Below, in pieces: positions 6,671-31,078 of a stretch of DNA of 35,703 nucleotides. The notes below the pieces were generated by a model. It did no database searches. It was given only the letters and a program-made list of their open reading frames with translations, and had not been told where the DNA came from. Numbering within the stretch: the stretch's first letter is position 1; each line of letters begins with the position of its first letter. A program made the position numbers and the translations under genes. This DNA comes from a virus: IMG/VR virus record IMGVR_UViG_3300043409_000811, positions 1 to 35,703 of that record; one strand, written 5' to 3'.

Positions 6671-8725
6671 ATGGCAACAGACAAACAAGTGAAATTAGAG
6701 CAAAACGAGTTCTACCAGCCAACAGAGGCTGACAAAGAACTAACTGGGTTTGTTGTTGACCATTGCCAACGCTGGCGTGATTACCGTGATGTCAACTTTC
6801 TCCCTGACTGGCTGGAATATGAGCGCATCTTCCGTGGTCAATGGGCAGCAGAAGACAAGACTCGTGAATCAGAGCGTAGCCGCATCGTCACCCCTGCCAC
6901 ACAACAAGCTGTAGAAACCCGCCATGCTGAAATCATGGAAGCTATCTTCGGTCAAGGCGATTTCTTTGACATTGAAGACAATATCCAAGACATAGGTGGA
7001 AACCCTATAGATGTTGAGGTGATTAAGTCTCAACTGATGGAAGACTTCAAGAAAGACAAAATCAGAAAATCTATCGACCAGATCGAGTTGATGGCTGAAA
7101 TCTATGGAACAGGCATTGGCGAGATCATCGTCAAGACTGAGAAGGAATATGTCCCAGCGACTCAAGCAATCCCTGGACAAATGGGTCAAGCCGCTATTGG
7201 CGTGACTGAGCGTGATCGTATTGCGGTCAAAATCATGCCTGTCAACCCTAAGAACTTCTTATTTGACCCTAACGGCACAAGCATTGATGACTGTATGGGT
7301 GTGGCTATTGAGAAATACGTCTCAATTCACAAGGTTGTTGAAGGTATCGAAAAGGGCATCTACAGAAAAGTAGACATCACGCCCACCTATGAAGACACCG
7401 ATCTTGAGCCAACCCAAGAGGTAAGCCAATATCAGGACGAAAAGGTGCTTTTGCTGACCTATTACGGCCTTGTTCCTCGTGAATACCTGAATAACCTCAA
7501 GGAAAACAAGGAAATTGTCGAGTTATTCCCTGAGAATTCAGCCGCTGAAGACTATACAGACATGGTTGAGGCCATTGTGGTCATTGCCAACGATGGTTTG
7601 TTGCTGAAAGCTGAAGAAAACCCTTACATGATGAAAGATCGTCCAGTCTTGAGCTATCAAGATGACACGATTCCTAATCGTTTGTTGGGTCGGGGTACGG
7701 TTGAGAAGGCTTTCAATATGCAAAAAGCTATTGATGCCCAGACTCGTAGCCACTTGGATTCTTTGGCGCTGACAACTAGCCCCATGATTGCGATGGATGC
7801 GACTCGTTTGCCAAGGGGTATGAAGTTTGAGATCAAGCCAGGCAAGGCAATCCTCACAAATGGCGCTCCTAGCGAGATTTTGTATCCCTTTAAGTTTGGT
7901 CAGAGTGACCCAAACAACTTGGCGACTGCAAAAGACTTTGAAAGAATGCTGTTGCAAGCTACTGGAACTCTTGACTCACAGGGCATGGTTAGTAACGTCT
8001 CTCGTGATGGTGGTCAAGGCGGTATGTCAATGGCTGTTGCTTCCATCATCAAGAAGTACAAGCGCACATTGGTGAACTTCCAAGAAGATTTCTTGATTCC
8101 GTTCATTAAGAAGGCGGCTTTCCGCTATATGCAGTTTGACCCAGAGCGTTATCCCTCTGTGGACATGAATTTTGTGCCAACTGCCACCTTGGGCATCATT
8201 GCTCGTGAGTATGAGCAACAGCAGTTCATTGGCTTGTTGCAGACTCTTGGCCCAAATACTCCAGTTTTGCCGATTATCTTGAAGGGCATCTTGGCTAACT
8301 CTAGTCTGACAAACCGATTTGAGTTGATGGCGGCTTTGGATGAGATGAGCAAGCCTAACCCACAAGCGCAAGAGATGGAGCAGATGCAAGCTCAGTTGGC
8401 TATGCAAGCGGCACAAGCAAATATTGCTGTTCAGACCACTCAAGCTGAAGAAAACAAGGCAAATGCTGTGAAACTGTCTATGGAAGCACAGTTGATGCCC
8501 CAAGAGATTCAAGCAAAAGTGCTTGGCGCAACCACTAAAAACTTACCTAATCAAGATGATGCCGCAGCAAGGGAGTTTGATAAGCGAGTCAAGATTGCTG
8601 AACTAATGCTCAAAGAATCTGACATCCAAAACAAGGCAAAAATTGTTGAAATGCAGATGATGGACAAACAAAATCAGTCCCAAAAGGACAATGATTTTTT
8701 AAAAAGCATCATTGGTGAGCAATGA
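6671..8725 (+). CDS. Portal protein
   Basis: This 684-residue protein follows the terminase block and precedes scaffold and coat. The start at 6671 has AAGGTAAG before ATG; the earlier in-frame GTG at 6638 would overlap the upstream gene and lacks such a site. The N-terminal region has the portal-like stretch with WLEYERIFRGQW, RIVTPATQQAVETRHAEIME and IFGQGDFF. The middle shows a portal core, and the end (about 560-684) is a long Gln-, Ala- and Met-rich helix likely to form the barrel or coiled coil inside the head. Twelve copies would form the DNA entry ring bound by the large terminase. Confidence 0.85.
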   Translation: MATDKQVKLEQNEFYQPTEADKELTGFVVDHCQRWRDYRDVNFLPDWLEYERIFRGQWAAEDKTRESERSRIVTPATQQAVETRHAEIMEAIFGQGDFFDIEDNIQDIGGNPIDVEVIKSQLMEDFKKDKIRKSIDQIELMAEIYGTGIGEIIVKTEKEYVPATQAIPGQMGQAAIGVTERDRIAVKIMPVNPKNFLFDPNGTSIDDCMGVAIEKYVSIHKVVEGIEKGIYRKVDITPTYEDTDLEPTQEVSQYQDEKVLLLTYYGLVPREYLNNLKENKEIVELFPENSAAEDYTDMVEAIVVIANDGLLLKAEENPYMMKDRPVLSYQDDTIPNRLLGRGTVEKAFNMQKAIDAQTRSHLDSLALTTSPMIAMDATRLPRGMKFEIKPGKAILTNGAPSEILYPFKFGQSDPNNLATAKDFERMLLQATGTLDSQGMVSNVSRDGGQGGMSMAVASIIKKYKRTLVNFQEDFLIPFIKKAAFRYMQFDPERYPSVDMNFVPTATLGIIAREYEQQQFIGLLQTLGPNTPVLPIILKGILANSSLTNRFELMAALDEMSKPNPQAQEMEQMQAQLAMQAAQANIAVQTTQAEENKANAVKLSMEAQLMPQEIQAKVLGATTKNLPNQDDAAAREFDKRVKIAELMLKESDIQNKAKIVEMQMMDKQNQSQKDNDFLKSIIGEQ

Positions 8726-11646
8726 ATCTTAAAAAAGTCATCCTTTCAGATGCGTCCACAGAGGCAAAAGTCTCTGCTATTGCCATTCTTTTAGACAAAG
8801 AACTGCCTAAACTTACCGAACAAGTTCAAACTGTTAAGAAACTTGAAGGTAAGCAAGGTGAGCGTGGTTTAAAGGGAGACAAAGGCGATAAGGGTAAAGA
8901 CGGTAAGGATGGCAAAGATGGTCGTGATGGCAAAGATGGCCCTACTGGAAAAGACGGTAAAGATGGTGACGATGGCATTTCAGTAGTCAATGCCAAAGTA
9001 GATTTTGATGACACGCTAGTTATTAGTTTGTCAAACGGCAAAGAAATCAATGTTGGTGAAGTCAAAGGCGAAAAGGGTGACTCAGGTCGTGATGGAAACA
9101 CTGGTTCTAATGGTATTGGTGTTCCTACAGGCGGTACATCTGGACAGATTCTTGCCAAAAATAGCAATGCAGATTACGACACAGAATGGGTAAACGGTGG
9201 CGGTGGTAGCGGCGATGTGGTTGGGCCTGCCTCGGCGACTGATAACGCAATAGCCCGATATGACACCACCACTGGTAAGCTGATTCAAAACAGCGTTACA
9301 ACCATTGATGACACAGGTAATGCAAGCGGCATTTTGTCTCAACAATTCAGCAATGGCTCTGTTGTAACTTTAGCCGCTGGAAAGCTTTGGTACAACGGCA
9401 GTACAGGTTCTTGGAATGCAGGCATGGGTGGTGGAAACATTACTCAGCAAATTGGCGAAGAATTGTTCATTTATGGTAAAGCCTCTGCCGCTATTACCGA
9501 TTCGCCACTTCAGATTGTTTACCACACTGGCACAGTTGGGGCTAGCGGTGTTGTTACGTTTGGGCCAACAATTGCAGGCATCACAAACGCAAACGACATT
9601 ATTGGCGTGGCTACCGAAAATTTGGCGCTTAATGATTTTGGGCGTATTACTACATATGGGGTAGTGCGGGGCATCACAACCAACGGCAGTGCTTTTGGGG
9701 AAACTTGGGCTGACGATGATGTCATTTGGTACAACCCTGTAACAGGCAACCCCACCAAAGTTGAGCCTGTTGCACCCAACATCAAAATGCAAATTGGCAC
9801 TGTCATTACGGCAGGGTCTGGCGGCTCGGGATCGTTTCAAGTGCTATTACGGCCAGGCTCTGTGCTTGGCGGCACAGACTCCAATGTGCAATTTGGGACT
9901 CTAGCAAACAACAACTTGATTGCATATGACAGCGCCGCAGGGTATTGGAAAAATGTCACGGCATCCACACTAGGTTTGGGGACTGTGACAAGTGTTGCTG
10001 GCACAGGCACAGTCAGCGGTTTAACTTTGTCAGGCACAGTGACTAGCTCTGGCAACTTAACCCTTGGTGGTGCAATCACTGGATTTGCAACAAGTGGGGC
10101 AAATACCAACCTGACATCTGTGGCACTGACTACAGGAACAATATCTACGATTCCAACCAACAACACAGACATTGTTAATAAGCAGTACGCTGACGCAATT
10201 GCATCTGGCATTCACTTCCATGAAGCAGTGAGCTTGGCAACTACTGCGGCTTTGCCAGCAAACACCTACAACAACGGATCATCTGGGGTAGGGGCAACAC
10301 TTACAGCAACCGCCAACGGCGCTTTGTCTGTGGACTCAACACTGACTGTTGTTACAGAACGGATACTGGTAAAAAACGAAGCTACTGGCGCAAATAATGG
10401 TGTCTACACCGTTACTCAGGTTGGCTCTGCTGGAACACCCTACATTCTGACCCGAGCAACTGATTTCAATACTGTTGGCACTGGTGTTAACCAGATTGAC
10501 GAGGGAGACTTTTTTCTTGTCACTAGCGGAACGGCTAACGTAAACACAGCTTGGGTGCAACAGACCCCGCCACCAATAACACTTGGCACAACAGCACTTG
10601 TTTTTCAGCAGTTTGCCGCACCAATTACCTATACAGCGGGTACAGGGTTAAATGAATCGCCAAGTTTCACATTCAACATTGCCAACATCGGAACAGCAGG
10701 AACTTACGGTTCCTCCACGTTAATCCCTGTTATTACGACCAACGCTCAAGGTCAAGTAACTAACGTCACAACTGCCGCAAATCCGCAAGGAACGGTTACT
10801 TCTGTTGCTGCTACAGTCCCTAGTCTTTTAAGTGTTTCAGGTTCACCAATTACGTCAAGCGGTACATTAGCTTTTACATACAGTGGTACGGCATTGCCTG
10901 TTGTTAATGGTGGAACAGGACAAACAACCTACACAAACGGACAATTGCTTATTGGTAATACAACAGGAAACACGCTAACCAAGGCTACATTAACGCAGGG
11001 TGCTGGGGTAACAATAACAAACAGCACTGGCAGCATTACCATTGATTCGCCGTTGGCAAAAAGCACTTCAGCGTTTACAACAGGCACAGCACAAACATAC
11101 ACCGCACCAGCAAACACTCAATGGGTTAAGGTAACAGTGGTCGGGCCAGGCGGTAACGGTGGCGGCGCTGCCAACCAAAGGGCAACAGGCGGCGGCGGCG
11201 GTGGGGTGGCAATCAAATGGCTATCTATGACCGCAGGGCAGACGTTAACTTATACGGTTGGCACAGCATCTGGCACTGCCTCAACTGTTTCATCTGGCAC
11301 ATTAAGCATTACAACAATTACAGCAAATTCAGGTTCAAATGGCACAGGAACAGCTTATGCCTTGTCTCAAACTGCTGGTGCAGCGGGTGGTACGGCTACC
11401 AACGGTGATGTGAATATTACTGGTGGACAAGGTGGTTATTCTTATGGTTCAAGTACAACAGTAACAACAAACTTTTCTGGAAAAGGTGGGGATTGTGCGG
11501 GTTTTGGTTCTGGTGGCCCTGCTTTGGCAATGGTGGCTACTGCTGGTGTTCAAGGCAATGGTTTTGGTGCTGGTGGCGGCGGGGCGCATGGAAACAATAC
11601 TGCTGCCAATGGTCGGGGTGGCGTTATTATTTTTGAGGCATACTGA
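8722..11646 (+). CDS. Collagen-like tail fibre with a glycine-rich tip
   Basis: This is a 974-residue fibre protein whose start overlaps the portal stop. After a helical N-terminus (1-42), residues 43-85 are 14 unbroken Gly-X-Y triplets rich in KD and KG, a collagen-like rod. The middle has fibre repeats such as GTVTSVAGTGTVSGLTLSG and LPVVNGGTGQTTYTNGQLLI, plus a domain around NEATGANNGVYTVTQVGSAG found in other tail fibres. From about 793 the chain is very rich in Gly, Ala and Thr and ends GRGGVIIFEAY, like the polyglycine tips of phage adhesins. It probably binds the host receptor. It is unusual to find it between portal and scaffold genes. Confidence 0.8.
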   Translation: MNLKKVILSDASTEAKVSAIAILLDKELPKLTEQVQTVKKLEGKQGERGLKGDKGDKGKDGKDGKDGRDGKDGPTGKDGKDGDDGISVVNAKVDFDDTLVISLSNGKEINVGEVKGEKGDSGRDGNTGSNGIGVPTGGTSGQILAKNSNADYDTEWVNGGGGSGDVVGPASATDNAIARYDTTTGKLIQNSVTTIDDTGNASGILSQQFSNGSVVTLAAGKLWYNGSTGSWNAGMGGGNITQQIGEELFIYGKASAAITDSPLQIVYHTGTVGASGVVTFGPTIAGITNANDIIGVATENLALNDFGRITTYGVVRGITTNGSAFGETWADDDVIWYNPVTGNPTKVEPVAPNIKMQIGTVITAGSGGSGSFQVLLRPGSVLGGTDSNVQFGTLANNNLIAYDSAAGYWKNVTASTLGLGTVTSVAGTGTVSGLTLSGTVTSSGNLTLGGAITGFATSGANTNLTSVALTTGTISTIPTNNTDIVNKQYADAIASGIHFHEAVSLATTAALPANTYNNGSSGVGATLTATANGALSVDSTLTVVTERILVKNEATGANNGVYTVTQVGSAGTPYILTRATDFNTVGTGVNQIDEGDFFLVTSGTANVNTAWVQQTPPPITLGTTALVFQQFAAPITYTAGTGLNESPSFTFNIANIGTAGTYGSSTLIPVITTNAQGQVTNVTTAANPQGTVTSVAATVPSLLSVSGSPITSSGTLAFTYSGTALPVVNGGTGQTTYTNGQLLIGNTTGNTLTKATLTQGAGVTITNSTGSITIDSPLAKSTSAFTTGTAQTYTAPANTQWVKVTVVGPGGNGGGAANQRATGGGGGGVAIKWLSMTAGQTLTYTVGTASGTASTVSSGTLSITTITANSGSNGTGTAYALSQTAGAAGGTATNGDVNITGGQGGYSYGSSTTVTTNFSGKGGDCAGFGSGGPALAMVATAGVQGNGFGAGGGGAHGNNTAANGRGGVIIFEAY

Positions 11647-15396: not shown

Positions 15397-16040
15397 CATA
15401 CCTAGAACTTGTTAATGATGTCCTTGTAAGGTTGCGTGAAACAACCGTTTCAACCGTCACCCAAACAGCTTACTCATCTTTGATTGGCAAGTTTGTCAAT
15501 GATGCAAAACGTCAAGTTGAAGATGCTTTTGCGTGGAATGTGCTTGGCACTACCGTTACCCTGTCTACAACATCAAGCACATACTCTTATGCTTTAACTG
15601 GCGCTGGTCAGAAGTTCCAAGTGCTTGATGTATTGAACGTCACTAGTAACATCCGCATGAGAAATGTGGACTTTGCTACGATGAATCGCTATCAGAACTT
15701 CTCTACCCCTGTTAATGGAATTCCCGCTTATTACGCCTTTGATGGCGTAGATGGTAGCTATGACACCAAGGTAACGATTTATCCTCGTCCTGATGGCGTT
15801 TACAGCATCCCTTTTAGCCTGACAGTGCCACAGTCAACATTGTCTAGTGACGCTACTGTTATCAAAGTTCCTGACACCTTGGTATCTCAGAATGCTTACT
15901 CTCGTGCTTTAGTTGAGCGTGGTGAAGATGGTGGATTGAGTTCCTCTGAGGCTCATGCGTTGTACAAAACAATGTTGTCAGATTACATTGCTTTGGAAGG
16001 CACTCGTTATCCTGAGAATCAGGAGTTTGTGGCAACATGA
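15393..16040 (+). CDS. Head-tail adaptor or tail-tube protein
   Basis: This is a 215-residue protein with the look of portal-attached adaptor proteins. A helical start (MTYLELVNDVLVRLRE) is followed by a second helix with FVNDAKRQVEDAFAWNVLG, then a beta-rich part (YSYALTGAGQKFQVLDVLNV) and a C-terminal helix. Twelve copies of such proteins extend the portal and build the upper tail in podovirus-like phages, as T7 gp11 and P22 gp4 do. It overlaps the genes on both sides. The assignment rests on pattern and place. Confidence 0.7.
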   Translation: MTYLELVNDVLVRLRETTVSTVTQTAYSSLIGKFVNDAKRQVEDAFAWNVLGTTVTLSTTSSTYSYALTGAGQKFQVLDVLNVTSNIRMRNVDFATMNRYQNFSTPVNGIPAYYAFDGVDGSYDTKVTIYPRPDGVYSIPFSLTVPQSTLSSDATVIKVPDTLVSQNAYSRALVERGEDGGLSSSEAHALYKTMLSDYIALEGTRYPENQEFVAT

Positions 16041-17596
16041 GTCAAGCACTCCAAGTTTCAACAGTATCAGCCCCAGGCTTTTATGGGTTGAACACTCAAG
16101 ACTCGCCTCTTGATTTGCAGAGTGGATATGCTTTGGTTGCGACTAATTGCATTATTGACCAGTATGGTCGTATTGGATGCCGAAAAGGTTGGACTAAGGT
16201 TAATTCATCTTCAGGAAACCTTGGAGCAAATGATGTTGGCGTAATACATGAGTTGGTGGAAGCAAATGGTACTTTGACTGTGTTATTTGCTGGCAATAAC
16301 AAGTTGTTTAAACTTGATAGTTCTAATGTTGTTGTTGAATTAACCTATGGGGGAGGGGGGTCTGCTCCTACCATCACGGCTAATAACTGGCAATGTGCAT
16401 CCTTAAATGGAATTACATACTTCTTTCAGTCTGGTCACAATCCTTTGATTTACGACCCTGCTGTTAGTACAACCACTTATCGCCGTGTTTCAGAGAAGAC
16501 AGGTTATGTGGCTACAGTTCCTGATGCCAATATTTGTATTTCTGCTTATGGACGTTTGTGGGCAGCTAACACCACTACCAACAATGCCACTGTCTATTTT
16601 AGTGATTTGATTGCGGGTCATGTTTGGGCTACTGGTAGTTCTGGTAGTTTGAACGTCAACAATGTTTGGCCTAATGGTGCTGATGAAGTCACTGGTTTGG
16701 CGGCACATAACGGCTTCTTGTTCATCTTTGGCAAGCGTCAAATCTTGGTTTATTCTGGTGCAACTACCCCATCAACAATGGCGTTGAGTGACACTGTTGA
16801 GAGTATTGGTTGCATTGCTAGGGATAGTATTCAGACCACTAGCACCGATGTTGTGTTTTTGTCCAACAGTGGCATTCGTTCTTTGATGAGAACAATCCAA
16901 GAGAAGTCTGCTCCAGAGCGTGACTTGTCTAGAAATGTGCGTGATGATTTGATGACTACATTGTCAGGCGACAACATGGCAAACATCAAATCTATTTACT
17001 CTGAAAGAGAAGCCTTTTACTTGTTAACAGCACCTATTGTTAAACAAGTATTTTGTTTTGATACGAGACAATCGTTACCTAATGGCGCATTTAGAGCATC
17101 AACATGGGATTCTATTGAGCCTAAATCATTTTTGTCTAGGCGCAATGGGGATTTGTTGATTGGTAAAAATGGGTATATTGGTAAATATTCTGGGTATCTT
17201 GATGATACAAATACCTATCAATTTGCCTATTACACAAATCATGCTGACCTTGGAAACCAAGCACAAACATCAATCATAAAAAAAATCAGTGTTGTTGTCA
17301 TTGGCGGTAGCAATCAGTATGTGACGATCAAGTGGGGATATGACTTCCTGACAAACTACTTGTCTGAGAATATCTTGATTCCAGCACAAGGTGTTTCTGA
17401 GTATGGAGTAGCAGAATATGGAGCAAATGCCACGATAGTTGCTTATTATTCAGAAGGAGTTGCTTTGCAAACATTGATTGCAAATGGCTCTGGTTCTGGA
17501 AAAGTTGTTCAAACTGGATATGAAACAACTGTTAATTCATCTCAATTATCAATCCAGAAGATTGAAATTCAGACAAAACAAGGCAGAATGTCTTAA
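16037..17596 (+). CDS. Tail stopper/tubular protein (gp12- or gp10-like)
   Basis: This is a 519-residue beta-rich protein overlapping the adaptor gene. It opens with GFYGLNTQDSPLDLQSGYAL and RIGCRKGWTKVN, a start familiar from beta-propeller stopper or tube proteins of podovirus-like phages. Repeated blades follow, each with a Gly- and Trp- or Tyr-containing motif (for example LAAHNGFLFIFGKRQILVYS). It would close the portal channel or form the tail hub beneath the adaptor, like P22 gp10 or T7 gp12. An alternative is a generic virion protein. Confidence 0.7.
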   Translation: MSQALQVSTVSAPGFYGLNTQDSPLDLQSGYALVATNCIIDQYGRIGCRKGWTKVNSSSGNLGANDVGVIHELVEANGTLTVLFAGNNKLFKLDSSNVVVELTYGGGGSAPTITANNWQCASLNGITYFFQSGHNPLIYDPAVSTTTYRRVSEKTGYVATVPDANICISAYGRLWAANTTTNNATVYFSDLIAGHVWATGSSGSLNVNNVWPNGADEVTGLAAHNGFLFIFGKRQILVYSGATTPSTMALSDTVESIGCIARDSIQTTSTDVVFLSNSGIRSLMRTIQEKSAPERDLSRNVRDDLMTTLSGDNMANIKSIYSEREAFYLLTAPIVKQVFCFDTRQSLPNGAFRASTWDSIEPKSFLSRRNGDLLIGKNGYIGKYSGYLDDTNTYQFAYYTNHADLGNQAQTSIIKKISVVVIGGSNQYVTIKWGYDFLTNYLSENILIPAQGVSEYGVAEYGANATIVAYYSEGVALQTLIANGSGSGKVVQTGYETTVNSSQLSIQKIEIQTKQGRMS

Positions 17597-17605
17597 AGGA
17601 ATGCC

Positions 17606-18367
17606 ATGACAAATTACACCAAATCAACCAACTTTGCGACTAAGGACACCTTAACTTCTGGTGACCCATTAAAGATTGTCAAGGGTACTGAAATCAATAC
17701 TGAGTTTGACAACATTCAAACTGCTGTCAATTCAAAGGCTGATGTTGCATCACCTACTTTTACAGGAACAGTGACAATTCCAACATTGAGCGTTTCTGGA
17801 ACTGCTGCTATTACTGGAGTTGCTACTTTTTCTGCTGACCCTTTGTTTAATTCAACAGGCGCTGTTTTGTTATCTAAGGGAACTACTGGTCAACGTCCTG
17901 TAAGTACATCTTCAGGTCAAATTAGATTTAATACAACTACGTCATTATTTGAAGGTTATAACGGCACAGCATGGTCTTCTGTAGGTGGTGGTGGCGCTAC
18001 TGGAACATCTGGCAATGATATTTTTTATGAAAACTCCCAGACTGTGACAATGGGGTACTCAATAAGCGCTGGTAAAAATGCTATGTCTACTGGCCCAATT
18101 ACTATTGCGGCCAATTTTACTGGTACAGGTTCTATTTCTGGAACGACTTTGACAATCACAGGAACAACTGGTTCTGGTGTTTTGGTTGTTGGTTCTATCA
18201 TTAGTGGGACTGGCGTAACTGCTGGAACATTTATCAGTGCATTTGGAACTGGTACAGGTACTACAGGCACTTATACAGTTTCAGCTTCACAGACTGTATC
18301 TAGTACCGCAATCACAACATCAACTGCTGTCACTGTTCCTAGTGGTAGTCGTTGGGTTATTTTGTAA
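17606..18367 (+). CDS. Tail fibre or appendage protein
   Basis: This is a 253-residue protein rich in Thr, Ser and Gly with an AAAGGA site. The start ([20 protein letters not shown], then an [14 protein letters not shown] repeat) is a common fibre N-terminal module that trims the chain onto the tail. The middle has [20 protein letters not shown], a fibre motif. The end carries repetitive TG-rich strands. It precedes three paralogous fibre-tip genes, so I infer a short fibre that carries or assembles with them. Confidence 0.7.
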
Positions 18368-18376
18368 AGGAAATAT

Positions 18377-18964
18377 ATGTCATCATTGATTATTGCTGGA
18401 GACACAAGCGGTACTTTGACGCTTGCCGCCCCCGCTGTTGCAGGGTCTAACACATTGACGCTTCAGGCGGGTACTGCCACGAATTCGATGAATACGCTGG
18501 CGACTGCTGTTGCGTCTACCAGCGGTACTTCGATTGACTTTACAGGTTTGCCTGCATGGGTGAAACGTATTACTGTGATGTTAAACGGCGTAAGCACAAA
18601 TGGAACATCCATTGAAATTTTACAGATTGGTTCAGGTAGTTTTACTACAACAGGATATAGTTCAACAGCAGGATATTTTGTTAACGGAGCTGCAAGCGTA
18701 GGGTCTGGTCAAACAACAGGTTTTGCTTTAAACAGTACAAATTCTGCTGCAGTCTCTATTATTTCTAGTGCTGTTTTAACTCTTGTTTCTGGAAATACTT
18801 GGCTTATGGCTTATTCAGGTTTTGCGGCTGGAGGCAGCGCTGCAGTTTTAGGCGGTGGCGGTACTTTAACTCTTGGTGGCGCTCTTGATCGCGTTCGTAT
18901 CACCACAGTCAACGGCACTGACACCTTTGACGCTGGGTCTGTAAACATTCTTTACGAGGGCTAA
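18377..18964 (+). CDS. Fibre-tip paralogue 1
   Basis: This is a 195-residue protein, the first of three tandem relatives. Shared blocks are GTSIDFTGLPAWVKRITVML near 55-74 and ALDRVRITTVNGTDTFDAGS near the end, followed by VNILYEG. Between them lies a variable region of about 90 residues (Ser-, Thr- and Gly-rich beta strands). The last part is identical to paralogue 2 over 59 bases (18878-18936). I infer a receptor-binding or fibre-tip beta domain. The paralogues could form a mixed trimer or be alternative tips. Confidence 0.65.
   Translation: MSSLIIAGDTSGTLTLAAPAVAGSNTLTLQAGTATNSMNTLATAVASTSGTSIDFTGLPAWVKRITVMLNGVSTNGTSIEILQIGSGSFTTTGYSSTAGYFVNGAASVGSGQTTGFALNSTNSAAVSIISSAVLTLVSGNTWLMAYSGFAAGGSAAVLGGGGTLTLGGALDRVRITTVNGTDTFDAGSVNILYEG
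18878..18936 (+). repeat. 59-base direct repeat, copy 1
   Basis: This stretch in the 3' end of paralogue 1 is identical to 19471-19529 in paralogue 2. Such identity across two full wobble-free coding segments suggests recent duplication or gene conversion and provides a track for recombination that would delete or fuse the genes. Confidence 0.85.
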
Positions 18965-18966
18965 TC

Positions 18967-19557
18967 ATGTCAATACTTGTTTTAACTTCTGACACGCTGA
19001 TTGGCACAGCAGCCGCTGGCAATATTGAGTACAACGGTCAGTTCTATGGAACTGATAGCGCCGCGTCTAGAGCGCAGATGCAACGAATTACCCAAGGTAC
19101 GGCTGTTGCCTCTACAAGTGGCACTTCGATTGACTTTACAAGTTTGCCTGCATGGGTGAAGCGTATCACTGTGATGTTTAGTGGATTTTCTACAAACGGT
19201 TCTTCTAACTATTTGGTTCAGATTGGTTCAGGCTCGGTAACATCGTCAGGTTATATCGGAGCTACAACGGTGTCATCGACTAGCGTTACAAGTACAAACT
19301 CAACCGCTGGTTTTATTATTGGTAACGGCGCAGCCGCTGCTTCTTTTGTGGTAAGCGGTAATCTAATGATTACATTGCTTGGTTCAAATACATGGACAGC
19401 AAACGGTTCTTTCGGTGGTAGTGACGCAGCCCGTACCATTACTTCTGGTGGATCATCTCCAGCACTTGGCGGCGCTCTTGATCGCGTTCGTATCACCACA
19501 GTCAACGGCACTGACACCTTTGACGCTGGCTCTGTCAACATTTTGTATGAGGGTTAA
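18967..19557 (+). CDS. Fibre-tip paralogue 2
   Basis: This is a 196-residue protein starting two bases after paralogue 1. Its N-terminal 40 residues differ (DTLIGTAAAGNIEYNGQFYG, a fibre-attachment-like motif). It then has the shared SIDFTSLPAWVKRITVMFSG block, a different central variable region and the same C-terminal block. The closing DNA (19471-19529) is identical to paralogue 1, which points to recent exchange or duplication. The pattern of a fixed frame with a changing centre fits host-range variation. Confidence 0.65.
   Translation: MSILVLTSDTLIGTAAAGNIEYNGQFYGTDSAASRAQMQRITQGTAVASTSGTSIDFTSLPAWVKRITVMFSGFSTNGSSNYLVQIGSGSVTSSGYIGATTVSSTSVTSTNSTAGFIIGNGAAAASFVVSGNLMITLLGSNTWTANGSFGGSDAARTITSGGSSPALGGALDRVRITTVNGTDTFDAGSVNILYEG
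19471..19529 (+). repeat. 59-base direct repeat, copy 2
   Basis: Identical to 18878-18936. Recombination between the copies would remove 593 bases and produce one fusion gene with the N-terminus of paralogue 1 and the C-terminus of paralogue 2. Confidence 0.85.
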
Positions 19558-19560
19558 ACA

Positions 19561-20097
19561 ATGAGCACAATAATTGATGGTTCAGCAAGCGTCACGATCA
19601 ACTCTGGCGCTGTGCTTGGAATTACTTCTGGTACTGCTGTTGCATCTACCAGTGGAACAAGCATTGACTTCACAGGCATTCCATCTTGGGTGAAGCGTAT
19701 TACTGTGATGTTTGATGGGGTTAGTACGAATGGTACATCACCAGTACGCTTGCAAATTGGAGATAGTGGCGGAATATCTGCTAGCGGATACGCAGGAACT
19801 TCTGGAGCTATCTCTACCTCAAGTGCTGCCTCAACTCAAGTAGGCGCTGCAGGTTGGGATTTTAATGATGCATTCACTGCTGCTTCTACCCGTTTTGGAG
19901 TAATTACATTGGCGTTACTTAGTAATACAAGTAACACTTGGTGCATTTTTGGCGGCTATGGTCAAGGAAACCAAGCTTTGTTTTCAGGAATTGGTGGAGC
20001 TAAATCACTTTCTGGAACTCTTGACCGAATTCGTATTACCACAGTAGGCGGAACAAACACCTTTGACGCTGGTTCAATTAACATTCTTTACGAGTAA
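19561..20097 (+). CDS. Fibre-tip paralogue 3
   Basis: This is a 178-residue protein, the shortest and most diverged of the set. It keeps GTSIDFTGIPSWVKRITVMF and LDRIRITTVGGTNTFDAGSI near the end, but its DNA differs at many third positions, so it is older than the split of paralogues 1 and 2. The centre has its own sequence (a GDSGGISASGYAGTSGAIST stretch). It starts three bases after paralogue 2. Role as inferred for the others: fibre tip or receptor contact. Confidence 0.65.
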   Translation: MSTIIDGSASVTINSGAVLGITSGTAVASTSGTSIDFTGIPSWVKRITVMFDGVSTNGTSPVRLQIGDSGGISASGYAGTSGAISTSSAASTQVGAAGWDFNDAFTAASTRFGVITLALLSNTSNTWCIFGGYGQGNQALFSGIGGAKSLSGTLDRIRITTVGGTNTFDAGSINILYE

Positions 20098-20102
20098 ACA
20101 CC

Positions 20103-20255
20103 ATGACACACAGAATAGTAGTTAATTGCGAAACAGGTGTAACCACACAAGTGGAGTACACCGCTGAAGAGCAAGCAATCCACGATGCGGCAGTAGTTGA
20201 ACAAGCTGAAGCACAAGTCCAACAACAAGAGCAACAAACAAATACACCAGCATGA
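20103..20255 (+). CDS. Small Gln/Glu-rich phage protein
   Basis: This is a 50-residue protein (MTHRIVVNCETGVTTQVEYT at the start, then a Gln-, Glu- and Ala-rich helix). It starts five bases after the last fibre-tip stop, and its TGA overlaps the next ATG. Short proteins that begin with VVNCETGxxxxxxYTxEE are often found beside phage fibre genes; I know no function. The helix could be a chaperone or linker for fibre assembly. Confidence 0.6.
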   Translation: MTHRIVVNCETGVTTQVEYTAEEQAIHDAAVVEQAEAQVQQQEQQTNTPA

Positions 20256-20572
20256 TGATGCAAGACCCAGAATTCCGCATTACGCATCACTTCAGTGATG
20301 GCCTGTACGCCAAGGAGTCGTTCTTTGGGGCTGGCATGGCAATCATGAAGCATACGCATGACTTCAGCCATCTATCTATCTTGGCGATGGGAAAGGTTGC
20401 TGTATTGCGTGGTACTGAGATTGACATTGTTTCTGCGCCAGCTTGTATTGAGATTGAGGCTGGTGTTACTCATGGCGTTAAGGCCATCACAGATGTTGTT
20501 TGGTTTTGCATTCATGCCACAGACGAGAAAGACCCGTCAAAAGTGGATGAGATTTTGATTAAAGGGGATTGA
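20252..20572 (+). CDS. Cupin-fold small protein
   Basis: This is a 106-residue protein beginning with three Met codons (ATGATGATG) that overlap the preceding stop. The sequence KHTHDFSHLSILAMGKVAVL, with IEAGVTHGVKAITDVVWFCI, fits the double-stranded beta barrel of cupins. HTHDFSH could give metal-binding His residues and THG the last one. Cupins are versatile (enzymes or structural barrels). Among fibre and ejection genes a structural or assembly role is likely. No catalytic role can be read from the sequence. Confidence 0.65.
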   Translation: MMMQDPEFRITHHFSDGLYAKESFFGAGMAIMKHTHDFSHLSILAMGKVAVLRGTEIDIVSAPACIEIEAGVTHGVKAITDVVWFCIHATDEKDPSKVDEILIKGD

Positions 20573-29201: not shown

Positions 29202-29822
29202 TTACACCTTAATTTCATTGAGTTTTTTAACTTTGTCGTCCACTTCCGCAAGGAACTGGATAACCTCTTTTTCGAGTTCTGCAATGTACAAGTCATTGCG
29301 CTCGATTCTTTTGATGAACAACTGAAGATGGCTAGGCATTCGTGGGTCAAAACTCACAAAATCACACCAACTTCTGTCTGCACATCGCATCTGCCACTGC
29401 ATCTGATCGTAGTATTTCTTGGATGGTTCTTCACCAAGAATGGTGTCGATATGGGTGGCAGTGTTAGGACACTTTATCTCTAGGCATCCATCATCACCCA
29501 CCAAGCCATCAGGAGAGGCGGCAGACATAGGAATACTAGGATGGTCAATAGCACCTACCTGATCGACCATATTGCCTGTTTTAGACTCATACGCCCCACG
29601 AGCATAAATTTCCTGCTCGATTCCCCATTCCATAGCCGCATTGGTGTATGACTCTGCCACTTGGTTTGTCATACGCTCGACTACCAGTTGAGCCATGTAA
29701 TTAGCCCTGCTGGTGCTGTAGCCTGTCTTTGTCTTGGCAACAATGTCAGAGATACGAGAAGCAGTAGCCTTGCCACAACGCTGTGCAAACCATTCTGGTG
29801 TGCCTTGTACGATTTCAGTCAT
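29202..29822 (-). CDS. YqaJ/lambda-exonuclease family 5'-3' exonuclease
   Basis: This is a 206-residue nuclease using the ATG at 29822, which overlaps the stop of the gene before it. The N-terminal QGTPEWFAQRCGKATASRI, a middle AAMEWGIEQEIYARGAYE and the catalytic core SAASPDGLVGDDGCLEIKCP (Asp105, Glu115, Lys117) are the YqaJ signature; YYDQMQWQMRCADRSWCDFV follows. Such enzymes chew one strand of double-stranded DNA and pass the other to the annealing protein coded just upstream in the operon. The pair supports phage recombination and concatemer formation. Confidence 0.9.
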   Translation of the reverse strand: MTEIVQGTPEWFAQRCGKATASRISDIVAKTKTGYSTSRANYMAQLVVERMTNQVAESYTNAAMEWGIEQEIYARGAYESKTGNMVDQVGAIDHPSIPMSAASPDGLVGDDGCLEIKCPNTATHIDTILGEEPSKKYYDQMQWQMRCADRSWCDFVSFDPRMPSHLQLFIKRIERNDLYIAELEKEVIQFLAEVDDKVKKLNEIKV

Positions 29823-30064
29823 GCTTCCCTCGCCATCAGCATTGCGTCTGCCATGATGTATGCACTTCTTGCACACATTTGCTCTGAGTCATTGTCATTG
29901 TCACCAACATAAATTCCATCTTCATATTGGCTTTGTAAAATTACCTGCATAGCCTTTGCCGCCATGTAGTCACGAAGTGTCATGCCGTTGTATTGGCGAA
30001 GCTCCTTGGCCCATTTAAATGAAACTGGAAATGCTGGTGCATTTTGCATTTGTGCATAGTTCAT
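29819..30064 (-). CDS. Small hypothetical phage protein
   Basis: This is an 81-residue protein. The core GMTLRDYMAAKAMQVIL with YIMADAMLMAREA near the end is a familiar short phage protein, often beside recombination genes, for which I know no function. It has an AAAGGAG site. It overlaps both neighbours by ATGA, so it should be made in step with the annealing protein and the exonuclease. Confidence 0.65.
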   Translation of the reverse strand: MNYAQMQNAPAFPVSFKWAKELRQYNGMTLRDYMAAKAMQVILQSQYEDGIYVGDNDNDSEQMCARSAYIMADAMLMAREA

Positions 30065-30624
30065 TTCAACGCTCCTTTACGCTTTTCCTTGGCATCAATC
30101 ACTTTCTTTTGCCAATTCTTATCAGAACCGCAAGCACCATAAGCATCTGTGTAAGCATTCTTCAGTTCTTCCATTGTTGAAGCAGCATCAATAGCCGCCA
30201 AGTGGTCAATCATTGCGTTTACATCAATGTCAGAGCCTGACTCACCTTCAGGCAAGTCTTCTCCAGCATACAAATATAGGGCGAGTCCATGCAAAGACAA
30301 AGCCTTAGTCATGCACCGCATGATGGCAGTGTTGACAGCAAATGCGTCAGGGTTGAGGATTGCTTTGTTGCGGAAGTCCATCACTGGTAACTGGCAAGTC
30401 ATTGGTTTGCCAAACATGGTGACTGTGACAAACACCATTGCTGTGCCGTTGATGTCCATGAAGCACTTACCATCAAACATCTCGACTTTGTAGACAGCTT
30501 CTGGGTCTGCCTTTAGTGCTTCAGCCCATGCCCATGCCCACGAAAGGTAGGTAAGGTTGGCCTTTTTCTCTGTATGACTATTTACGTTCATACTGAGCAA
30601 TTTTTCAATTTGAGACTTATCCAT
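30061..30624 (-). CDS. Single-strand annealing protein (DUF1071/Sak3-like)
   Basis: This is a 187-residue protein. I use the ATG at 30624 with GGAGG upstream; the open frame further upstream lies inside the HNH gene. Landmarks NLTYLSWAWAWAEALKADPE, VTMFGKPMTCQLPVMDFRNK and NTAIMRCMTKALSLHGLALY, then LYAGEDLPE, match the DUF1071 group of phage single-strand annealing proteins (Sak3 type). It would anneal complementary strands exposed by the YqaJ exonuclease. The Glu-rich tail is typical. The exonuclease is coded in the same operon. Confidence 0.8.
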   Translation of the reverse strand: MDKSQIEKLLSMNVNSHTEKKANLTYLSWAWAWAEALKADPEAVYKVEMFDGKCFMDINGTAMVFVTVTMFGKPMTCQLPVMDFRNKAILNPDAFAVNTAIMRCMTKALSLHGLALYLYAGEDLPEGESGSDIDVNAMIDHLAAIDAASTMEELKNAYTDAYGACGSDKNWQKKVIDAKEKRKGALK

Positions 30625-31078
30625 TTGCAACCTCCATGTACGCCTTATGAGCCTGTTCAGCAGTGTCATAAATACCAATGTATTTATGTACGCCATTCCT
30701 TGTTATTTGTGCAATGAATTTTCCAGATTGATGCTTACTAGCGCCAATCAATTTAGTCTTTGAATTGACTTGATGACATTTTCTGTTTTCCATGTTTTTG
30801 CTTTGAGTACAAGCAAGCAAATTACTCCATCTGTTGTCATCTTTAACTCCATTAATATGGTCAACAACATTTTTAGGGAAACTTCCTGTCATGCACAAAA
30901 ATGCAAGTCTATGAGCGTAATATCTTTTTTTATTTACAGATATGCTTGTATATCCATGATTATGTCTTGAGCCAGCAATCGAACCAGCCGCCTGTCTTCC
31001 GTTTCTAGTCTTCCAACGAAACAAACCTGTTTCTGGCTCATAGTTGAGCAACATTAACACTTGTTCTTGATTCATCAT
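30617..31078 (-). CDS. HNH endonuclease with AP2-type domain
   Basis: This is a 153-residue protein starting at a double ATG with an AGGAG site. The N-terminal part (LNYEPETGLFRWKTRNGRQA, then a YYAHRLAFLCMTG segment) and the HNH motif in VVDHINGVKDDNRWSNLLA with CTQSKNMENRK identify a phage HNH endonuclease. The C-terminus GKFIAQITRNGVHKYIGIYD plus TAEQAHKAYME is an AP2-like DNA-binding domain. Such genes behave as free-standing homing endonucleases. It lies inside the recombination operon and overlaps the annealing gene by eight bases, which suggests invasion. Confidence 0.85.
   Translation of the reverse strand: MMNQEQVLMLLNYEPETGLFRWKTRNGRQAAGSIAGSRHNHGYTSISVNKKRYYAHRLAFLCMTGSFPKNVVDHINGVKDDNRWSNLLACTQSKNMENRKCHQVNSKTKLIGASKHQSGKFIAQITRNGVHKYIGIYDTAEQAHKAYMEVANG

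Follow-up and report, generated by a model that had tools for sequence, protein, structure and literature searches.

The viral DNA analyzed here (IMG/VR record IMGVR_UViG_3300043409_000811, positions 1 to 35,703; 35,703 nucleotides, referred to as the window) carries three adjacent genes, A, B, and C, which, as judged from their sequences and those of their relatives, are conserved slots with their own N-terminal modules and not simple recent duplicates. In each protein, two fixed blocks enclose a variable centre, and one and the same centre was found in different slots of related phages, with breakpoints in or near the blocks. We consider it probable that the array encodes exchangeable tips of a tail fibre, whose centres are moved between phages and slots by recombination through the blocks.

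The features of the array and the candidate recombination genes are listed in Table 1. The three open reading frames (ORFs) lie on one strand, with intergenic gaps of 2 nt between A and B and 3 nt between B and C. An N-terminal block (TAVASTSGTSIDFTxxPxWVKRITVM) and a C-terminal block (LDRxRITTVxGTxTFDAGSxNILYE) were found by alignment to be common to A, B, and C, and the centres between them were dissimilar. The initial annotation had described three neighbouring genes with two fixed blocks around different centres, and the ORFs and the alignment agree with that description.

Table 1. Features of the fibre locus and candidate recombination genes, in window positions.
Feature	Position	Strand	Description
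Anchor fibre gene, 253 aa	17606..18367	+	5' of the array; orthologues in relatives with the tip domain fused C-terminally
Slot A putative tip gene	18377..18964	+	195 aa; N-module MSSLIIAGDTSGTLTLAAPAVAGSNTLTLQ.. and common tip domain
Slot A N-block tract	18527..18564	+	37/38 nt identical to slot B
Slot A C-block tract, 59 nt	18878..18936	+	Exact match to slot B
Slot B putative tip gene	18967..19557	+	196 aa; N-module MSILVLTSDTLIGTAAAGNIEYNGQFYGTDS.. and common tip domain
Slot B N-block tract	19123..19160	+	37/38 nt identical to slot A
Slot B centre (limits approximate)	19155..19477	+	Recurs in slot A of L159, 98.8% DNA identity
Slot B C-block tract, 59 nt	19471..19529	+	Exact match to slot A
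Slot C putative tip gene	19561..20097	+	178 aa; short N-module MSTIIDGSASVTINSGAVLGIT and common tip domain
YqaJ-like viral recombinase (exonuclease)	29202..29876	-	Pfam PF09588, E 5e-27; candidate exchange partner
Sak single-strand annealing protein	30061..30696	-	Pfam PF06378, E 3e-39; candidate short-homology recombinase

Directly 3' of the array, the window encodes a small cupin-like protein (20252–20572) with PHROG matches to "tail fiber adhesin" and "short tail fiber protein", and this gene was kept after every tip architecture seen among the anchor-fibre relatives. A second large fibre-like protein (8722–11646; 974 aa), comprising a collagen-like repeat and a glycine-rich domain, is encoded between the portal gene and the scaffold/capsid genes.

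The role of the three proteins was approached by comparing the gene that follows orthologues of the upstream gene (16037–17596), which gave 121 distinct orthologues of the anchor fibre protein. The tip domain was fused at the C-terminus of 20 of the 121 anchors, and no slot genes were seen after those 20. All nine anchors seen with slot genes following ended in ..PSGSRWVIL, and the remaining anchors ended in different tips (..NANLQPYIVVYMWQRTA) or in chaperone-like ends. The tip domain was also found at the C-terminus of longer fibre-like proteins. As the domain is fused to anchor orthologues, A, B, and C are probably the detached tips of that fibre, and the fibre-tip location suggested by the initial annotation is favoured by this gene-fusion evidence. 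Over the tip domain, copy C matched phrog_18673 (tail fiber protein) and phrog_29482 (unknown function), copy A matched phrog_29482, and copy B matched neither of the two at E ≤0.1; a profile built from relatives matched all three copies. The sequence matches and the C-terminal location in fibre proteins place the copies in a tip-domain family of the phrog_18673/phrog_29482 type, although these profiles comprise 373 and 477 positions, of which the tip domain is one part. Small beta-sandwich proteins can decorate capsids, and copy C weakly and non-significantly matched a phage cement protein (7eel_H, E 0.72); however, the C-terminal placement of the domain in long fibre-like proteins, its fusion to anchor orthologues, and the PHROG tail-fibre match make a role for A, B, and C in capsid decoration, or elsewhere in the virion away from the fibre tip, very improbable.

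Copy B was modelled using AlphaFold2 with 107 aligned sequences, and a beta-sandwich was predicted from approximately residue 54, mostly with confidence, the N-module being modelled at low confidence (pLDDT ~54–63). In this model, the conserved blocks correspond to the first and last strands. A Foldseek search with the model gave no match below E 0.001 in the PDB; in BFVD, it retrieved only predicted proteins of phages and other viruses, the top matches having ~30–50% identity and often being parts of longer proteins. The best VIA-align matches were legume lectins (Z 7.8, 135 residues, 3.4 Å), a score within the range of common arrangements, and the model may hint at a lectin-like function of the tip domain. 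Profile searches for a solved homologue returned none, and the single-sequence matches were at E 0.1 or worse.

Relatives were collected as IMG/VR loci, later extended with loci anchored on neighbouring genes, and the tip family proved to be large. At least 16 distinct trios, including that of the window, were in A-B-C order, with each slot holding its own conserved N-terminal module. Among the matches listed, the distinct adjacent pairs were A-B (42), B-C (41), A-C (3), and B-A (1), and the gaps between slot genes in relatives were mostly 2 and 3 nt. Slot modules were also joined to other tip domains (21 A, 13 B, and 8 C proteins among the matches listed), and the tip domain was present on many other N-modules, including those of proteins of 300–390 aa. 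Copy C had been regarded as older in the initial annotation, which was not borne out: core protein identity was ~56% for A-B, 54% for A-C, and 54% for B-C, so that the three cores are equally distant, and relatives have a conserved slot C. Copy C differs only by not having the recent block tracts of A and B.

Three further observations were made on these loci. The slot-B module often carried another undescribed tip domain, QYYRLNADLAGANATGAQSIFGVG.. (L076, L084, L130, L159, L190, L224, and L232), which is probably another adhesin family. Extra genes were located in or beside the fibre locus of relatives (L222 5412–5951, L247 10775–11314, L235 2778–3065, and L244 7989–8276); those of L222 and L247 resemble HNH-type endonucleases by eye and could promote local gene conversion. 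A search for the host in bacterial genomes gave eight MAG contigs from unrelated phyla, which were uninformative and are possibly phage contigs binned in error.

The key mosaic was retrieved by searching with the centre of copy B only, which matched a near relative, IMGVR_UViG_3300020044_002319 (L159; also L220 and L300), at 99% protein identity. Over 3 kb (window 15581–18582), L159 and the window share 96.6% identity. Its slot-A gene opens with the A module of the window, of which the first 137 nt are identical, and continues with a third N-block, the B centre of the window, and a third C-block, followed by a regular slot B start. The centre spans 323 nt at the identity given in Table 1, and the flanking blocks are only ~73% identical. 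The right breakpoint is near the left edge of the 59-nt tract shared by A and B in the window. Going by these alignments, a mosaic of the type predicted in the initial annotation exists, with a near relative holding the centre of copy B in slot A. Past position ~3692, L159 continues with the downstream region in inverted orientation, 87.6% identical to window 22328–20077, and this join is either a real inversion or, possibly, a chimeric contig. The source data being metagenomic and the inversion join of L159 unexplained, cross-slot mosaics in general might be chimeric contigs assembled through the common blocks. We regard this as improbable, since third-party blocks stand on both sides of the L159 centre in a gene that precedes the join and has the correct context on both sides, which would need several chimeric joins, and the other cross-slot cases keep their correct neighbours too.

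The exchange of centres extended beyond L159. In 15 trios, the N-modules stayed conserved by slot, and the amino acid identity of the centres was ~0.30–0.34 in every class of comparison (same or different slot, same or different genome). Centre pairs with at least 80% DNA identity numbered 29, of which 13 were on unrelated N-modules; at 90% or above, this was the case for 7 of 20 pairs. For example, the centres of L076 slot A and L026 slot C were 97% identical in amino acids, one centre was found in three slots (L015 slot C, L031 slot B, and L026 slot A) at 86–95% amino acid identity, and the centre of L019 slot C matched a 354-aa fibre-like protein in L030 at 95%. In nearly all cross-module pairs, DNA identity was lower in the blocks than in the centre, which is direct evidence that the centre moved independently of the frame around it. 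Maximal high-identity segments began at or beside WVKRITV in several pairs, often ending in the C-block, and several segments were shorter than the centre. The L159 mosaic and 12 further centre pairs on different N-modules thus support the earlier proposal of a frame that stays fixed around a variable centre exchanged by recombination. Exchange between slots is not free, as nearest-neighbour centres were in the same slot at 0.49, compared with 0.38 with shuffled labels. The centres of copies A and C had best matches elsewhere of only 48% and, over its length, 50%, respectively.

The window also retains probable traces of exchange between blocks. The 59-base identity of A and B reported in the initial annotation was confirmed at exactly the positions in Table 1, and the N-block tract consists of 18 and 19 exact nucleotides separated by a single mismatch. 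Given the same amino acids and the codon usage of the phage, the probability that 19 full codons are identical by chance is ~3e-9. No exact run in the 126 within-locus pairs of family members was longer than these 59 nt, and runs reaching 59 nt were found in 14 of 23,964 between-locus pairs. Runs of at least 40 nt were enriched within loci over between loci (p 0.003, uncorrected for the codon usage shared within a genome). General concerted evolution within the genome was rejected, with average block codon identity of 0.43 within and 0.42 between loci for A-B C-blocks; as the two values are equal, the 59-nt tract represents a specific event. We propose that it was left by a block exchange that took place recently in this lineage. 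A different account is that the blocks are kept only for folding, as terminal strands of the beta-sandwich, and that the identical tract resulted from protein selection and codon bias. The blocks are indeed conserved at the protein level throughout the family and coincide with terminal strands in the model, but the copies otherwise agree in ~43% of the synonymous codons of the blocks, which contrasts with the 19 identical codons, and centres are found again on different N-modules between blocks that have diverged, leaving this account only a slim chance.

Whether centres are exchanged within a genome or between phages bears on what the array is for. None of the centre pairs at 0.5 identity or above came from the same locus, and the swapped centres were found between contigs. 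Fixed slots with distinct N-modules also suit three parallel adhesins. Exchange only between co-infecting phages, with the array being three adhesins for three receptors and the slot changes being by-products, has in our judgement a little less than an even chance, as the A/B block tracts of the window and the enriched within-locus runs suggest that exchange, at least of blocks, occurs in the genome too. Both routes may contribute. A stronger version, in which the array is a gene-conversion system whose extra tips serve as donors within the genome while Sak/YqaJ recurrently move centres between slots during infection, appears rather unlikely to us; if it were true, the adhesin in the decisive slot would change in a manner similar to the cassette switching of bacterial surface antigens.

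A dedicated diversity system, either a diversity-generating retroelement or a site-specific invertase, was considered as the source of the variable centres. Major tropism determinant is the name of a retroelement target, and a homologue in Pseudomonas phage AH02 is so annotated, which is annotation only. However, neither a reverse transcriptase nor an invertase-type recombinase was identified among the window ORFs scanned with Pfam, in a record that may be incomplete. Inverted repeats flanking the array were also not found, the sole inverted pair being inside the downstream cupin-like gene. The centres, moreover, differ by indels and throughout their length and not at adenines of one template, and there is next to no probability that such a system is responsible. 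The lack of these elements in the window favours short-homology recombination through the blocks.

Candidate genes for such recombination are present in the window (YqaJ and Sak, Table 1). An HNH endonuclease gene (30617–31078) is beside the Sak gene, and a weak RuvC-like match was noted at 390–869. Rad52-like phage recombinases, to which the Sak group belongs, are reported to drive mosaicism even where the sequences have diverged, and the minimum for Red-beta is ~30 bp (PMC3945230). The A/B tracts of ~38 and 59 nt exceed this minimum and are long enough for recombination by that yardstick.

In the explanation that we favour, A, B, and C would be small adhesin tips of the tail fibre, each docking through its slot-specific N-module, probably on the fibre encoded upstream or on neighbours. 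The common tip domain of ~155 aa, a predicted beta-sandwich, would consist of the two blocks as a fixed frame and a centre of ~100 aa that varies and probably carries receptor specificity. As these blocks are conserved in every slot and in many related phages, they could supply short homology arms, and recombination through them, probably via the YqaJ and Sak proteins of the phage itself, would move centres between phages and slots, with a presumed benefit in host range.

Phage host range is usually thought to shift by point mutation, exchange of whole genes or C-termini, retroelements, or inversion. The analysis, made on sequence alone, located one centre in different slots of near-identical phages, which makes the array a real substrate for reshuffling possible binding. 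It provides a natural, testable system for the shuffling of adhesins by short homology, together with a large collection of interchangeable tip modules with which phage specificity could be mapped.

The tip domain can be considered very common among environmental phages yet undescribed, and it is organized as a fixed three-slot array; this arrangement was absent from the titles and abstracts returned by a search of a partial library. Homologous C-terminal domains (39–45% identity) are present in gene 15 of Pseudomonas phage AH02 and in Rhizobium phage proteins, but in AH02 the domain belongs to one longer protein (1407-nt gene), and the stretch viewed had no tandem slot genes. The array resembles the branched tail-spike arrays of Ackermannviridae (tsp1–tsp4) in that several adhesin genes stand side by side and every one has a distinct conserved N-terminal part for docking; in those arrays, the addition of a fifth gene by engineering was followed by recombination or deletion of the tandem genes (PMC11414711). 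In contrast, the Ackermannviridae proteins are large polysaccharide-recognizing spikes, whereas the proteins here are of ~180–200 aa and exchange an internal centre. In mode of variation, the array works like the T-even tip adhesin gp38, in which conserved motifs alternate with hypervariable segments that are reshuffled (PMC6630733; Tetart 1998 and Trojet 2011, both cited in PMC12529663). Both systems have conserved motifs around hypervariable segments, and the chimeras that recombination between the conserved motifs yields in gp38 have their counterpart in the centre swaps detected here. They differ in that the gp38 motifs are glycine-rich and the array blocks are not, and in that the array has a predicted beta-sandwich fold and presents the tip as three tandem genes with slot-specific N-modules.
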